Source of the DNA: Caldifarciminota bacterium
GTDB taxonomy: Bacteria; Hydrothermota; Tepidihabitantia; B3-TA06
Direction of reading: 5' to 3'
Assembly: GCA_023128825.1 (NCBI GenBank)
Contig: JAGMDF010000077.1
Span: 1-36,619, forward strand
DNA length: 36,619 bases
Each line of letters starts with the position of its first letter. Position 1 is the stretch's first letter. The position numbers and the translations under genes are program-made. The notes under the pieces were generated by a model that made no database searches, was not told the DNA's origin, and saw nothing but the letters and a program-made list of their open reading frames with translations. Positions 3,365-26,093 of this stretch are shown here, piece after piece.

Positions 3365-4342
3365 ATGGTCAGTCTACTTTTTTCCCTCTTCACCGCTCTT
3401 ACCCCCCAGGCCGAGGCGCTGCTTGAGAGGGGTATAGAGGCCTCCCACGTGGAGGATTACGTTAAGGCTCGCATAGCCTATGCAAAGGCCAAGAGGCTCT
3501 GCCCTGAGGACCCCGCTCCATACTTCCTTGACGGCGCTTTAACCTTCATCTACATGGTGGATTTCGTCACCGACTCACTGGAAGATCAGTTCGATTGGGA
3601 CATGAACAAGGCCGAGGAACTTGCAAAGGCCGGACTTGCGAAGAACGGCGAGAACGCCCGCGACCTTTTCTTCATCGGATCGGTTAAGATCTTCCGCATG
3701 GTTCGTTACGGTTGGAAGCGCCAGTACCTCAAGGCTCTCTCTGCGGGAAGCTCGGCACTCGATCCTCTTCTCAAAGCGAGCGAACTCGACCCCAATCTCC
3801 ACGACGCATATCTGGCCAGGGGGGCTTTTGATTACTTCTCCGGCCGGATTAACCGCTACATCCCGGGCGTGCCTGCCGAGGCCACGGTCGAACAGGGTAT
3901 AAGCGAGATCAGGCTTGTCTACGAGAAGGGCACTTACTTCCAGGCCTCTGCCGGCCAGGCGCTTTCATGGGTGCTGACCGAGGAGGGTCGATCAAAGGAA
4001 GCGCTTGCAGTGAGCCAGGAGCTTGTGGATGCCTACCCAGAGTCCCGCACCTTCCGCTGGGGACTGGGCGAGTTGTACATCGACCTTGAAATGTGGGAAG
4101 AGGCAAAGGAGCTCTACAAAAAGCTTCTTGCCGACGTTCGCCGCGACCAGCCCTCCTGCTACACCAATATCTATCAGATAAAGCTTCGCCTGGCTGAGGT
4201 TTATGCAAGTATGGGGAAGGAAGAGACCGCCGTCCGTTACTGTCTGGAGGTTATAGACAACAAGTATCGGATCAGAAGGGATTTGGGATACTCCGATATT
4301 GTCAGGGATGCTGAAAGACTCTTGCGCAAACTCGATGAATAA
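3365..4342 (+). CDS. Secreted tetratricopeptide-repeat (TPR) protein
   Basis: A 325-residue protein with a short N-terminal hydrophobic segment (VSLLFSLFTALTPQA, likely signal peptide) followed by TPR-like helices: ALLERGIEASHVEDYVKARIAYAKAKRLCPEDP, then LLKASELDPNLHDAYLARGAFDYFSGR, and C-terminal units FRWGLGELYIDLEMWEEAKELYKKLL and RLAEVYASMGKEETAVRYCLEVID. The A/G-Y/F-A/P pattern at positions 8, 20 and 27 of the 34-residue unit is visible. TPR arrays mediate protein contacts, here probably in the periplasm. The start could be GTG 3362 or ATG 3365. Its last 8 bases overlap the start of the glycosyltransferase gene, so the two are translationally coupled. Confidence 0.8.
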   Translation: MVSLLFSLFTALTPQAEALLERGIEASHVEDYVKARIAYAKAKRLCPEDPAPYFLDGALTFIYMVDFVTDSLEDQFDWDMNKAEELAKAGLAKNGENARDLFFIGSVKIFRMVRYGWKRQYLKALSAGSSALDPLLKASELDPNLHDAYLARGAFDYFSGRINRYIPGVPAEATVEQGISEIRLVYEKGTYFQASAGQALSWVLTEEGRSKEALAVSQELVDAYPESRTFRWGLGELYIDLEMWEEAKELYKKLLADVRRDQPSCYTNIYQIKLRLAEVYASMGKEETAVRYCLEVIDNKYRIRRDLGYSDIVRDAERLLRKLDE

Positions 4343-5657
4343 GAGTATCCTTATCATAACCTACTACTTTCCTCCGTTGGGCGGGGTTGGAGTGCAGCGG
4401 GTTTCAAAGTTATGCAGGTATCTTCCTCGCTTCGGCTGGCGTCCTGTGGTAGTTGCGCCCCAGCCCTCGGCGTTCTATGCTGCCGACGAGGAGATGCTTG
4501 CCGAGGTTAAGCACGTATCGCTGTATCGCGTTGCGGGCCTTGACAGCTTCCGCATGCGCCAAAAGCTCATCGGTCCTTTTAAACCAAGAATTGACAGCCC
4601 GTTGCGCTGGGTTGCCCGGCGTTTTTCATGGCCCGATACACAGACCGCATACATCCCTGCGGCATTCAGGCTTGCCTATAGGCTGGTAAACGAAGCCCAC
4701 GCGGTCCTCGTTACCGCTCCGCCTTACAGCAACCTTCTTCTGGGGCGGCTGATCAAGAGGAGAAGCAATCTTCCACTCATTGTAGAGATGCGCGATCCCT
4801 GGGTCGGGCATCCGGAACACGATAAGCCGGGCTGGAAGCGTGCCTTAAACAGGCGGGTTGAGCGCGACGTTCTGGAATACGCCGACGCCGTCGTCGCGGT
4901 TACACGCTCGCATACCGGGAATCTGCGTAAGCGTTATCCCTGGCTTGCCCCACGTATCCACTACATCCCCAACGGATTCGACGCCGCCGACTTCCGTAAC
5001 ACCCGTAACACCCGCAACACCCGCAACACCCGTAACACCAGTAACACACGTAACACACCTATCCGTAAGACTTCTGGCACCAGTAAACGAAGGCCCTTAA
5101 CCATCTGCTATACCGGTATACTTGGACTGGATCATATCAATCGCGGGACTACCCTGTATGCGGCGATCAGGCGGTTGAGGGACGAGGATGGGATTACACC
5201 TGCTCGGTTGCGTGTGGAGATAATGGGGGAGCTAAGCGCGGTTGAAGAGGAGCGAATCCGTCGTAGCGGCGTCTCTACCTTTATTGAAAGACTGGGGCAT
5301 CTGTCCCACCGCAAGGCTATGCAGCGCCTTCAAAAGGCAGACCTCGCATGGCTGCCCTATCATGCGGAGTATTCACGCCTTATAGTCCCTGCCAAGACTT
5401 ACGAGTATATAGGTTCGGGCACGCCTGTGCTGGCCGTGGTCAACCCGCATCATGAAACCGCAGAGCTTGTTCGGGAGACCGGCACCGGTCTTGTGGTGTC
5501 CGAGGGCGATGTTGACGGGGTGACACAAGCCATGCGTATGCTTCTTGAAGGAGCTTTTCCTTACTCTCCCAAGCCCAAGGCCATAGCAAAGTTCGATCGG
5601 CGATACCAGGCCAGGCAGCTTGCCGAAATCCTGGATGACATTACCCGGTATGGCTAA
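4335..5657 (+). CDS. Glycosyltransferase, GT4-like, with an in-frame 9-bp repeat insert
   Basis: The 440-residue protein has the two-Rossmann (GT-B) layout. The N-terminal domain opens with SILIITYYFPPLGGVGVQRVSKLCRYL, typical of GT4-family enzymes that use nucleotide-sugar donors. The C-terminal domain has LTICYTGILG near residue 255 and a donor-site region SGTPVLAVVNPHHETAELVRETGTGLVV. It probably adds sugars to a surface polysaccharide or lipid. Between the domains, residues 221-241 are seven RNT-type triplets encoded by the same 9-bp CGTAACACC repeat found in intergenic DNA here; this lies in the usual linker after IPNGFD, so activity may survive. ATG 4335 overlaps the previous stop (ATGAATAA) and its own last 8 bases overlap the next gene. 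Confidence 0.85.
   Translation: MNKSILIITYYFPPLGGVGVQRVSKLCRYLPRFGWRPVVVAPQPSAFYAADEEMLAEVKHVSLYRVAGLDSFRMRQKLIGPFKPRIDSPLRWVARRFSWPDTQTAYIPAAFRLAYRLVNEAHAVLVTAPPYSNLLLGRLIKRRSNLPLIVEMRDPWVGHPEHDKPGWKRALNRRVERDVLEYADAVVAVTRSHTGNLRKRYPWLAPRIHYIPNGFDAADFRNTRNTRNTRNTRNTSNTRNTPIRKTSGTSKRRPLTICYTGILGLDHINRGTTLYAAIRRLRDEDGITPARLRVEIMGELSAVEEERIRRSGVSTFIERLGHLSHRKAMQRLQKADLAWLPYHAEYSRLIVPAKTYEYIGSGTPVLAVVNPHHETAELVRETGTGLVVSEGDVDGVTQAMRMLLEGAFPYSPKPKAIAKFDRRYQARQLAEILDDITRYG
4995..5057 (+). repeat. Seven in-frame CGTAACACC units inside the glycosyltransferase gene
   Basis: Consecutive 9-mers CGTAACACC (x2), CGCAACACC (x2), CGTAACACC, AGTAACACA and CGTAACACA encode (R/S)NT seven times. The unit is a three-codon multiple, so expansion keeps frame. 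The same unit occurs in intergenic arrays at 8521-8683, 8847-8868 and 21401-21462. Confidence 0.9.
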
Positions 5658-8520: not shown

Positions 8521-8683
8521 CCCGTAACACCACCCGTAACACCCGTACCCATAACACCCGTACCCGTACCCCTGCGGGGCATTCTCATTATTACTTGGAG
8601 CTTACGCTCCAGAACATCTAAGGATATAACACCCGCACCCGTAACACCCGTAACACCACCCGTAAAACCACCCGTAAAACACC
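8521..8683. repeat. Degenerate CCCGTAACA arrays with interspersed hairpins
   Basis: Two runs of CCCGTAACA/CCCGTACC-type 8-10-mers (8521-8571 and 8625-8683) flank small hairpins such as GGAGC-TTAC-GCTCC and CCCTGCGGGG. No coding frame is convincing across 8520-8865. Confidence 0.75.
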
Positions 8684-8846: not shown

Positions 8847-8868
8847 GTGTTACGGGTGTTACGGGTTA
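8847..8868 (-). repeat. CCCGTAACA repeats abutting the stop of the second CNNM gene
   Basis: On the minus strand the stop codon TAA is followed directly by CCCGTAACA CCCGTAACA. The coding sequence thus ends exactly where the repeat begins. Confidence 0.75.
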
Positions 8869-21296: not shown

Positions 21297-21400
21297 AGCG
21301 CGGGTTTAGTATGCCACCGTCGGGTGCCCCAACCCGCGGAGAACGGGAATGGCGGACTGGAAAGAGGCGGGAAATTGAGAAGGGGCCCCGGAGGGGTACG

Positions 21401-21462
21401 GGGGTGTTACGGGTGTTACGGGGGTGTTACGGGTGTTACGGGGGTGTTACGGGTGTTACGGG
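21401..21462 (-). repeat. Three exact 20-bp units of the CCCGTAACA repeat at a gene end
   Basis: GGGGTGTTACGGGTGTTACG occurs three times in a row (21401-21420, 21421-21440, 21441-21460). The stop codon of the 21456-23201 gene (TAA, 21458-21456 on the minus strand) lies within the last unit, so the repeat supplies the stop. Confidence 0.9.
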
Positions 21463-23417: not shown

Positions 23418-23457
23418 TTACCCCACAAAAACACTATGTATTTTTGCGGGGACCCCA
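23418..23457 (+). repeat. ACCCC...GCGGGGACCCC element
   Basis: ACCCCACAAAAACACTATGT followed by ATTTTTGCGGGGACCCC. The inner part pairs as CAAAAAc.../...ATTTTTG, different in sequence from other copies but again complementary. Confidence 0.6.
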
Positions 23458-23605: not shown

Positions 23606-23627
23606 GGGCCGACTTGAAAGTCGGCCC
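23606..23627. repeat. GGGCCGACTT hairpin element
   Basis: GGGCCGACTT and AAGTCGGCCC form a perfect 10-bp stem with a 2-base loop, followed by CCTAC; member of the GTAGGGGC family with a changed inner pair. Confidence 0.7.
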
Positions 23628-23664
23628 CTACTTCCTTTTGACCAGCTTAGGCATTGAACCCTGT

Positions 23665-23741
23665 CCAACTTTTGTCCAGCTTTTGACCACCTTTTGACCA
23701 ACTTTTGACCAGCTTTTGACCAGCATTTGACCACCTTTTTT
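23665..23741 (+). repeat. Seven 11-bp iteron-like repeats upstream of nfnA
   Basis: Seven back-to-back 11-mers fit CCANCTTTTGA (variants at position 4 and minor changes in units 1, 6 and 7). The array ends 48 bases before the -35 box of the nfnA promoter. A spacing of 11 bases places each unit on nearly the same face of the DNA helix, as in arrays bound cooperatively by a regulator or initiator. Confidence 0.85.
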
Positions 23742-23789
23742 GTGACGAGTGCGATGTAAGGCTGACGGGTTCGTGGGGTGTTTTTCTGA

Positions 23790-23818
23790 TTGACACACCA
23801 TTCCAAACCCCGTATAAT
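23790..23818 (+). promoter_or_regulatory. Consensus promoter of nfnAB
   Basis: TTGACA (23790-23795), 17 bases, TATAAT (23813-23818). The start near 23825 gives a leader of about 30 bases with AAAGGAGG at 23843-23850. Confidence 0.85.
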
Positions 23819-23854: not shown

Positions 23855-24700
23855 ATGTTCAAAATCGTTGAGCGGGAACGCGTAAATCCCGTAGTTAATA
23901 AGTTTGTAATCGAGGCTCCCATCATTGCCAAAAAGCGCGAGCCTGGACAGTTCGTTATCTTTCGTCTGCACGAGAAGGGCGAACGCATCCCCATCACCAT
24001 CGCCGATGCTGATCCGGATGCCGGAACCATCACCGTTTACGTTCAGGAGCTGGGGAAAACTACATTCCAGATGGGCACTATGCAAGCAGGCGACGAGATA
24101 GCCGACGTGGTAGGCCCTCTTGGTAACCCTACATCAATAGAGAAGCTTTCAGGTGAGATGTTCGTGATCGCTGGCGGCGTTGGTGCCGCCGAGGTCCTGC
24201 CCATCGCCCGCAAGCACAAAAAGATAGGCAACAAAGTGGTTGCCATCCTGGGCTTTCGCTCCAAGGACATCGTTATCCTCGAGGACGAGTTCCGCTCTTT
24301 TGCGGACGAGGTTTATATCACCACCGACGACGGCTCCTATGGACGCGAAGGGTTCGTGACCACCGAGCTCAAGGAGCACCTCGATAAGGGCCGTAACATT
24401 GCCGAGATCCTCGCCGTTGGCCCGGCCATCATGATGAAGGTGGTCTCAGATTTGACCCGTCACTACAAGATCAAAACCATGGTATCCTTGAACTCAATCA
24501 TGATAGACGCCACCGGCATGTGCGGTGTGTGCAGGGTGGAGGTGGGCGGCGAGACGCGCTATGCCTGTGTGCACGGCCCGGAGTTCGACGGCCACAAGGT
24601 CAACTTTGATCTCTTGCTCAAACGTCTGGCTTCGTTTAAGGAAGAGGAGAAGATTTCACTTGAACGCTACCAGGCCGCGGTAGGAGGCGAAGATGGCTGA
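23855..24700 (+). CDS. nfnA: NfnA/SudB-type FAD and NAD(P)-binding subunit with C-terminal 2Fe-2S cluster
   Basis: Small subunit of the NADH-dependent ferredoxin:NADP oxidoreductase (also annotated as sulfide dehydrogenase beta or dihydroorotate dehydrogenase electron-transfer-like subunit). The complex couples NADH, NADPH and ferredoxin by flavin bifurcation. The 281-residue protein has an FNR-like FAD domain (EPGQFVIFRLHEKGERIPITIADAD), an NAD(P)-binding region (MFVIAGGVGAAEVLPIARKHKK, then AVGPAIMMKVVSDLT) and a C-terminal 2Fe-2S motif, DATGMCGVCRVEVGG...YACVHGPEFDG. It starts at ATG 23855 behind AAAGGAGG and overlaps nfnB by 8 bases, so the two are coupled. A dihydroorotate dehydrogenase partner is unlikely since the NfnB homologue follows directly. 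Confidence 0.93.
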   Translation: MFKIVERERVNPVVNKFVIEAPIIAKKREPGQFVIFRLHEKGERIPITIADADPDAGTITVYVQELGKTTFQMGTMQAGDEIADVVGPLGNPTSIEKLSGEMFVIAGGVGAAEVLPIARKHKKIGNKVVAILGFRSKDIVILEDEFRSFADEVYITTDDGSYGREGFVTTELKEHLDKGRNIAEILAVGPAIMMKVVSDLTRHYKIKTMVSLNSIMIDATGMCGVCRVEVGGETRYACVHGPEFDGHKVNFDLLLKRLASFKEEEKISLERYQAAVGGEDG

Positions 24701-26093
24701 CGCAAAGATCCCGCGCCAGGCCATACCCAAGCAGACGCCAAAAGACCGCGTCAAGAACTTCAACGAGGTCGCTTTAGGCTACACCCCTGAACTCGCTCAG
24801 CTTGAGGCTCAGCGCTGCATCCAGTGCAAAAAGCCGTTCTGCATAGAGGGCTGCCCGGTGGAGATAGACATTCCGGCGTTCATCAAGCTCATCAAGGAAG
24901 GCGACTTCGAGGGTGCTCTGGCCAAGATCCGCGAGACCAACCTTCTGCCTGGGGTATGCGGCAGGGTATGTCCCCAGGAGGAGCAGTGTGAGAAGGTGTG
25001 CATCATGGCCAGGCGGTTTGAGCCGGTGGCCATTGGTCGTCTGGAGCGTTTCGTGGCCGACTGGGAGATCCAGCAGAACAAGATGGATCTGCCTGAGATC
25101 GCGCCTCCTACCGGTCACAAGGTAGCGGTGGTGGGCTCCGGCCCTGGCGGACTTACCGTGGCCGCGGACTTAGCCAAGCTCGGTCACAAGGTTACCCTGT
25201 TTGAAGCCCTTCACAAGCCGGGCGGGGTACTGGTCTACGGCATCCCCGAGTTCCGTCTTCCCAAGGCCATCGTGGCCCGCGAGTGCCACATTCTGGAAGA
25301 GATCGGAGTGGATATCCGTACCGATTTTGTGGTGGGCCGAACCGCGAGCGTGGACGAACTCTTCGAGATGGAATACGAGGCGGTTTATCTCGGACTGGGA
25401 GCCGGTCTTCCCTGGTTTATGAACATCCCTGGCGAGAACCTGGTAGGGGTCTATTCGGCCAACGAGTACCTTACCCGAATCAATTTAATGAAGGCCTATA
25501 AGTTTCCTGAGTACGATACCCCTATCCGGGTAGGCGACCGGGTAATCGTTGTCGGCGGCGGCAACGTGGCCATGGACTCGGTGCGCTCCAGTCTGCGTTT
25601 AGGTGCCAAGGAAGCCCATATCATATACCGCCGCTCCCGCAAGGAGATGCCGGCACGTAACGAGGAGATAGAGAATGCGGAGGCAGAAGGGGTCGTATTC
25701 AACTTCCTTGTAAACCCGGTGCGCTACATCGGCAATGAGCAAGGCAGGGTCAAGCAGGTTGAACTTTTGAAGATGGAACTGGGCGAGCCCGACGCCTCGG
25801 GTCGCCGCAGGCCTGTGCCCATCGAAGGTTCGGAGTACATAATGGATATTGACACCGTAGTGGTCGCCATCGGCAACGGGGCTAATCCCTTGGTTCCCTC
25901 CTCCACCCCTGGTCTTGATACCAACAAGTGGGGCTACATAGTGGCCGATACCGAGACCGGAAAGACCACCAAGAAAGGGGTTTGGGCAGGCGGCGACATC
26001 GTCACAGGTGCCGCAACCGTCATCCTGGCCATGGGCGCGGGCCGCAAAGCCGCCAACTCCATACACGAGTATTTGACGACCGGTGAATGGTAG
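24693..26093 (+). CDS. nfnB: NfnB/SudA-type flavoprotein (glutamate synthase small-chain family)
   Basis: Large subunit of the NfnAB transhydrogenase, related to GltD and often annotated as NADPH-dependent glutamate synthase. The 466-residue protein has an N-terminal iron-sulfur domain (CIQCKKPFCIEGCPVEIDIPAFI and GVCGRVCPQEEQCEKVCI, supporting two 4Fe-4S clusters), an FAD site VVGSGPGGLTVAADLAKLGH (about residues 144-163) and an NADPH site VVGGGNVAMDSVRSSLRLGA. The C-terminal FAD segment KKGVWAGGDIVTGAATVILAMGAG is also present. No glutamate synthase large subunit is adjacent, which favours the transhydrogenase role. With NfnA it balances NADH, NADPH and reduced ferredoxin, which would supply the Hdr-type module at 34 kb. 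Confidence 0.93.
   Translation: MADAKIPRQAIPKQTPKDRVKNFNEVALGYTPELAQLEAQRCIQCKKPFCIEGCPVEIDIPAFIKLIKEGDFEGALAKIRETNLLPGVCGRVCPQEEQCEKVCIMARRFEPVAIGRLERFVADWEIQQNKMDLPEIAPPTGHKVAVVGSGPGGLTVAADLAKLGHKVTLFEALHKPGGVLVYGIPEFRLPKAIVARECHILEEIGVDIRTDFVVGRTASVDELFEMEYEAVYLGLGAGLPWFMNIPGENLVGVYSANEYLTRINLMKAYKFPEYDTPIRVGDRVIVVGGGNVAMDSVRSSLRLGAKEAHIIYRRSRKEMPARNEEIENAEAEGVVFNFLVNPVRYIGNEQGRVKQVELLKMELGEPDASGRRRPVPIEGSEYIMDIDTVVVAIGNGANPLVPSSTPGLDTNKWGYIVADTETGKTTKKGVWAGGDIVTGAATVILAMGAGRKAANSIHEYLTTGEW

Follow-up and report, generated by a model that had tools for sequence, protein, structure and literature searches.

Upstream of the nfnAB-type gene pair of G000, the genome studied here, lies a run of 11-bp direct repeats, and the question that this locus raises is what such a run is and whether it belongs to these genes. 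The stretch analysed (the window, 36,619 nucleotides) is contig C115 of the G000 assembly (2,047,161 bases, 139 contigs); its features are collected in Table 1. The first-pass annotation of this DNA had described seven copies of one unit, variable at position 4 only, as a site of cooperative binding by a regulator or replication initiator that might control the transhydrogenase, or else as a simple satellite. This observation was largely right; better readings exist than specific nfnAB control, an origin or a simple satellite. The array forms the core of an intergenic element built from modules, with a left module, (11-mer)n and a tail GTGACGAGTT..AAACCTGACG.

Table 1. Features of the window at and around the array
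Feature	Position	Strand	Remarks
Core array	23665..23741	+	Seven 11-bp units of the CCANCTTTTGA type; final unit ends CTTTTTT; CTTTTG core once per 11 bp
Promoter TTGACA-17-TATAAT	23790..23818	+	12/12 consensus match
Remnant of a second array, left-hand	23631..23652	+	Two degenerate units, CTTCCTTTTGA CCAGCTTAGGC
Tail module GTGACGAGTGCGATGTAAGGCTGACGGGTT	23742..23771	+	Conserved; 12 tail matches in G000, at least 9 adjoining arrays
nfnA-type FAD/NAD-binding subunit	23855..24700	+	NF004862; DHODB Fe-S domain
nfnB-type / GltA-type NADPH oxidoreductase subunit	24693..26093	+	TIGR01316 above cut-off
Hairpin repeat ACCCC..GGGGACCCC	23420..23456	+	Separate dispersed palindrome family; often left module at other arrays
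Palindrome GGGCCGACTT GA AAGTCGGCCC	23606..23627	.	Left-hand variable zone; read by eye
Left-hand gene, 581 aa	21456..23201	-	ORF

Tandem Repeats Finder reports a period of 11 with 6.8 copies at 23665-23739 (score 108). The seven repeats are present, but a sevenfold identical unit is too strong a description, as only four are exact copies of CCANCTTTTGA (starting at 23676, 23687, 23698 and 23709). The first unit has a terminal T, the sixth reads CCAGCATTTGA and the seventh CCACCTTTTTT, and positions 6, 10 and 11 vary besides position 4. With at most one mismatch, CCANCTTTTGA matches the window 9 times against 2.61 expected (9 or more in 0 of 100 shuffles); six of these matches lie inside the array, all in register. 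The perfect promoter was confirmed at a distance of 48 bp from the array end (23742-23789). The two-unit remnant on the left and the conserved tail on the right had been overlooked, and G001 also has the second remnant unit together with the spacer ATTGAACCCTGT (23653-23664).

An Rfam search of the window gave no match, and neither did Pfam and NCBIfam searches with the 581-aa protein encoded to the left. In G001, G002 and G004, a different gene (an ORF of 284-285 aa) stands to the left of the nfnA array. The best named match of NfnB (88%) is in the Candidatus Stahlbacteria MAG SOJW01000035, by which we assign G000 to the WOR-3/Stahlbacteria group. The window also holds a second short-repeat family of the CCGTAACAC / TACGGGTGT type, with 9-bp (also 12-, 15- and 20-bp) arrays at 4994-5056, 8521-8680, 8847-8866 and 21397-21462. 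One of them is within a 452-aa ORF (4299-5657), and the rest are intergenic or at a gene end.

We searched all contigs of G000 for two consecutive units with up to three mismatches. This gave 115 matches against 0 for the reversed pattern, and at least 34 array places were counted among the approximately 105 matches listed. Six contigs (C35, C60, C92, C97, C111 and C126) end inside an array or within about 25 bp of one. Arrays therefore interrupt the assembly, and all copy numbers are minima. With at most one mismatch, the array pattern was found in six of 61 genomes (G000 and its relatives), five of genus g1 and one of genus g2 of the same family. The core-only pattern (three CTTTTG at 11-bp intervals, one mismatch) was searched in 147 genomes of the phylum. 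It matched all eight genomes of the family f1, to which the array-bearing genera g1, g2 and g3 belong, with 21-124 matches each; outside f1, 9 of 139 genomes gave a single match each, and the reversed control also gave isolated single hits. A viral reservoir of the arrays was rejected, as a collection of viral contigs contained no exact match to the three-core pattern of the g1 type. The array is an apparently new, family-specific variant of a modular intergenic repeat. In the open-licence literature, we found no account of intergenic repeats in WOR-3/Stahlbacteria, and one may be in print elsewhere.

From 92 arrays of at least three units, the unit consensus is [CG][CTG]A N C[TA]T[TC]TG[ATG], and the commonest unit junctions are G-ACC-A, G-TCC-A and G-GGT-A. 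The terminal unit usually ends in CTTTTTT, CTTAATT or CTTATTT and is often directly followed by a tail like GTGACGAGTTGCACTCAAACCTGACGAGTT. Besides the tail matches of G000 that adjoin arrays, two sit near contig ends, and in G001 the tail has the same strand and right-hand position relative to the array. On the left, an A-tract run (ACCCCAAAAACCCTCAAAAATACCCCAAAATCGCCCC), a block ending in GCGACGCAGTCGCG or the hairpin listed in Table 1 alternate as modules. The element shows what characterizes modular repeats, i.e., dispersion, intergenic position and a leader-core(n)-tail build. The 11-mers are not palindromic, whereas the neighboring hairpin family is. In 746 kb of G001, there are 50 hairpin copies (47 intergenic), of which only 5 are within 600 bp of an array. 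These hairpins are about 37 nt long and REP-like, with stems that vary strongly yet stay self-complementary. Mobilization of the arrays by a RAYT was set aside, as the presence of Y1_Tnp (seven of nine genomes) does not track the arrays: it is absent from the array-rich G004 and from the array-less G008. To the right of the array at L219 (G005), a tail-like motif seems to form a repeat of about 20 bp (..CCTGACTACGA..), equal to two helical turns.

For the genomic context, 73 array loci from G000, G001, G002 and G004 were collected in 42 groups (44 without two joins made by eye, L168-L187 and L147-L190). None of the 73 arrays is within a called gene. In 22 groups the right-hand gene is transcribed away from the array, in 17 it points at the array and in 3 there is none, which is not a fixed placement at regulated promoters; the spacing between array and promoter, judged by eye, also varies among loci. 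Near-even orientation and unfixed spacing make the role of a classical activator site unlikely. The distance to the right-hand gene is near-constant in most orthologs (97/97/98, 177/177/178, 189/189, 65/65, 86/86 and 52/52), and the left distance varies. Across three G001 contigs sampled without selection (746 kb), the left distance exceeds the right one in 14 of 15 array-bearing intergenic intervals (two-sided sign test, approximately 0.001). Right-hand neighbors include tRNAs (Ala, Ser, Tyr and Gly), an HU/IHF-type gene supported by Pfam, and genes for proteins which, by their N-terminal sequences, we take to be MetG-, SmpB-, ClpB- and RpmF/PlsX-like.

Among 39 similar locus pairs, 18 have both flanks in common, 19 the right flank only (in 5 of these, the contig stops on the left side) and 2 the left flank only (L161-L189 and L182-L189). 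When all G000 flanks were mapped on other genomes, an array was present at 9/9 mapped right flanks in G002 and, in the G001 sample, at 7/9. Of the two exceptions, L140 is a match of 71% identity and probably a paralog. At the other, the ortholog of the L006 site, the modules on both sides (A-tract and tail) are kept and the array core is lost, so that it is not a clean empty site. The array is thus dispersed, intergenic and polar, and it is kept at orthologous gene ends.

The units themselves are unevenly constrained. In 332 internal units from G000, G001, G002 and G005, T7 never changes, T9 and G10 depart once each, and position 4 is nearly free (1.72-1.90 bits). Departures in g1 units are restricted, at position 6 to T -> A and at position 8 to T -> C in 18 of 19 cases. 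Across 34 locus pairs (by-eye joins and three-way sets included; the pairs are not independent), we aligned 148 unit pairs and counted 54 differences at position 4 and 38 at position 11, but 1 at position 7, 2 at position 9 and 3 at position 10, a contrast which in absolute terms is overstated and partly built in because the array callers score the core and omit positions 4 and 11 (in g3, they score the core alone). The differences among scored positions (7, 9 and 10 versus 1, 2, 6 and 8) are no such artefact. A coding (peptide) repeat was rejected by inspection, as successive 11-bp units start at every codon position in turn, which also puts the free base in each of the three.

Genus g3 offers the most stringent test. 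There, the core pattern with a mostly open linker gave 84 matches in G006 and 48 in G007 (reversed control, 2 and 0), and none in G008. The fifteen g3 arrays that we read keep CTTTTG and the 11-bp period and have different linkers. A tail-like match lies within 120 bp to the right in 5 of 14 g3 loci (three of them close) versus 1 of 14 to the left. The right-hand gene of L292 (G006) is common with the G000 array locus L006 (up to 90% at the amino acid level), and that of L297 (G007) with the g1 array locus L146. L306 matches L161/L182 weakly, L298 has its left flank in common with L004/L158, and some further matches are crossed or concern left flanks. In G005, the right flanks of L199, L207 and L216 are common with the G000 array loci L135, L026 and L009. 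The CTTTTG core and the 11-bp period hence outlast a wholesale change of the linkers between genera, an argument for selection that keeps one CTTTTG per helical turn. We read the pattern as selection that likely acts on core and phase and leaves linkers and copy number free; it suggests a chain of putative protein docking sites.

A protein-binding reading has precedent in known binders of direct repeats with a conserved core in 11-bp phase. In the portions of the papers available, CarH binds tandem 11-bp direct repeats on one face of the DNA (PMC9304148), and the PHO boxes of E. coli PhoP are 11-bp repeats with a 6-bp core and a 5-bp spacer (PMC9019756). Both resemble our array in the repeat length, the short conserved core and the free linker; they differ, as far as these portions go, in having few repeats at regulated promoters, whereas the array has 3-8 repeats with a CTTTTG core and is dispersed, next to unrelated genes and orientation-neutral. 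BldC, as excerpted, assembles head-to-tail on direct repeats and reads the narrowed minor groove of AT-rich DNA (PMC5859096). BldC and RdfS are described as small winged-HTH proteins that form head-to-tail oligomers on DNA, with BldC taking about one turn per molecule on a longer site (PMC5859096, PMC11963761).

On balance, we lean towards a family-specific modular element with one protein-binding box per turn, occupied as a cooperative head-to-tail array. Each CTTTTG would be one putative box, and the 3-8 boxes on one DNA face would nucleate a short cooperative nucleoprotein filament. Filament and phased A/T tracts together may bend the DNA at a gene border, i.e., upstream of promoters or past stop codons or tRNAs. 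At nfnAB, the array would then be an architectural or regulatory patch upstream of RNA polymerase which is not specific to this operon. Of the proposals in the first-pass annotation, cooperative binding by a protein, with one site per helical turn, is still the best reading and is backed by conservation; the initiator is taken up below.

Modular repeats can also be neutral for the host. The BOX elements of Streptococcus pneumoniae have a combinatorial intergenic build, boxA-boxB(n)-boxC, with a boxB of about 45 bp; our element is alike in this build and unrelated in sequence. Old insertions at gene ends, with an 11-mer core changing by slippage and unit exchange, would explain the leader-core-tail build, the dispersion, the unit numbers among nfnA orthologs (seven in the window, 4+5 in G001, 6 in G002 and 4 in G004), the loss of the array between retained modules at the L006 site of G001, and the abundance of repeats in intergenic DNA (dispersed similarity in 129 of 220 regions >150 bp in the G001 sample). 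A neutral repeat should, however, vary evenly, and here three almost invariant positions stand beside a nearly free one, the core persists through linker replacement between genera, and arrays stay at orthologous right-hand genes. We regard this explanation as unlikely, if still one to be reckoned with; the strongly uneven constraint likewise disfavors a simple satellite in its neutral version. Could the shape of the DNA suffice, with phased T-tracts that curve the DNA and pin the tip of a plectoneme at gene borders without a dedicated protein? We predicted curvature with a junction model (assumed parameters) for the last 120 bp of 76 arrays and for shuffles. It gave about 95 degrees over the window array and a mean of 76 degrees over the 76 arrays versus 23 for the shuffles, and 74 of the 76 exceeded their own shuffles. 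A/T tracts of at least 4 stand in helical phase, with high predicted curvature. A-runs of the left modules keep phase with the T-tracts of the array (39 runs, R 0.65, with a significance that is overstated as the module copies are related), and A-runs 60-120 bp further left do not. According to the available text of two papers, negatively supercoiled DNA is often associated with a period of about 11 bp (PMC4132750), and curved DNA of 75 bp pins plectonemes, for which sites upstream of promoters have been predicted in several genomes (PMC6301789). Against shape alone, the predicted curvature passes the 99th percentile of intergenic windows in just 29 of the 76 arrays, the array is at the 3' end of the right-hand gene rather than upstream in 17 of 39 groups, and the flanking C and G of CTTTTG would be unneeded, and longer tracts would bend more. 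Since this C and G are strictly kept, a protein is favored, and shape as the sole explanation appears improbable. Recognition of CTTTTG by a protein once per turn and intrinsic curvature are non-exclusive, and both fit.

The remaining explanations tie the array to one process. As a dedicated operator for nfnAB transcription, it would be well placed 48 bp before a perfect promoter; it is kept in all four same-genus genomes with the locus, with unit order and tail partly conserved and, in G004, a hairpin between array and tail. The first-pass annotation had held that absence of the array from nfnA in close relatives, or its occurrence at many unrelated positions, would speak against its reading, and the latter is what the genome search found. 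Arrays also adjoin genes of the metG, smpB, clpB, plsX and HU/IHF types (most of these names being our assumption) and tRNAs, and there is no array before nfnA in G005 (NfnA 85%), G007 (89%) and G008 (67%); in G003 and G006, a search for a close NfnA found none. The dispersion largely refutes specific control of nfnAB, which we consider most unlikely. A Rho-loading (rut-like) or termination element would match the C-rich, G-poor + strand with one pyrimidine-C step per 11 nt and the fixed polarity towards the right-hand neighbor. Left-hand genes run towards the array in just 20 of 39 groups, though, and no terminator-like site was found near the window array, so that this reading is very improbable. 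Regular direct repeats of one helical turn could also suggest a replication origin or plasmid-type iterons, as the initiator proposal had it. The copy number of at least 34 on the chromosome refutes this; moreover, the GC skew has no clear switch at the array, and the one DnaA-box match, 11 kb away, is near chance, which leaves this possibility next to no weight. Three large G001 contigs have too weak a GC skew to reveal any polarity of the arrays relative to the replication fork. The NfnA-like paralogs L038, L039, L040 and L042 (G001-G004) have one in-frame TGA, for which a frameshift, a pseudogene or selenocysteine is possible.

Other dispersed repeats place the element more closely, in the parts of the sources that were available. 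BrickBuilt of Porphyromonas gingivalis (PMC4596501) likewise has a dispersed intergenic leader, a variable tandem core and a tail; its core is 23 nt and its ends are small inverted repeats, whereas our element has a helix-phased 11-bp core that is conserved across three genera, and several left modules. The STAR elements of staphylococci (PMC3532100) are also interspersed intergenic direct repeats that expand and contract, each locus being distinct. Their repeats are separated by spacers and their locations differ between species, unlike the head-to-tail 11-mers here, some of which are at orthologous genes across genera. The TAACTGA repeats of Beggiatoaceae (PMC4679880) share the short intergenic direct repeats at many places (about 170) and, in the available text, the lack of a functional theme or known binder. 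They differ in a 7-bp unit right before start codons, read as translational; our 11-bp unit is found at 5' or 3' gene ends and is untied to start codons.

Returning to the protein-binding reading, we searched for a binder. As BldC-like proteins are small and have an HTH, the HTH_17 profile (PF12728) was run against nine genomes; it matched in 8/8 f1 genomes and not in G008. The f1 ortholog has two HTH_17 domains in tandem, whereas BldC, in the text available, is a single-HTH protein. With the double-HTH_17 protein as query, matches of 57-100% identity were found in 8 of 147 phylum genomes, all f1, and weak partial matches (33-37%) in three others. The distribution of this protein equals that of the arrays (eight f1 genomes), but these genomes are one family and one phylogenetic event, so any f1-specific gene fits and the link is confounded by shared ancestry. 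Hence, the tandem double-HTH_17 protein of about 110 aa (G000:C111:11575-11904) is a candidate binder, a lead by co-occurrence. No array lies within about 1.5 kb of its gene. HU/IHF was rejected as binder because all nine genomes have two copies, with or without arrays.

One may go further and suppose a chromosome-organizing system in which CTTTTG arrays mark gene borders and nucleate double-HTH filaments that fix bends and domain edges, with free linkers; we put this forward as a speculation and hold it to be rather unlikely. If true, genera of this WOR-3/Stahlbacteria family would keep a code (core and phase) and not a repeat, as the 5-bp linkers drift freely. Intergenic repeats of the dispersed kind are commonly written off as selfish or neutral. 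In these arrays, the different evolutionary rates of core, phase and linker are plain to see and allow function to be tested directly in an uncultured phylum, with a candidate partner named. Confirmation would extend the mode of direct-repeat binding seen in BldC, CarH and PHO boxes to the scale of the nucleoid.

In G001, G003 and G005 (L263, L265 and L266), the ORF just upstream of the double-HTH_17 gene encodes a predicted membrane/coiled-coil protein, which makes it a possible membrane tether.
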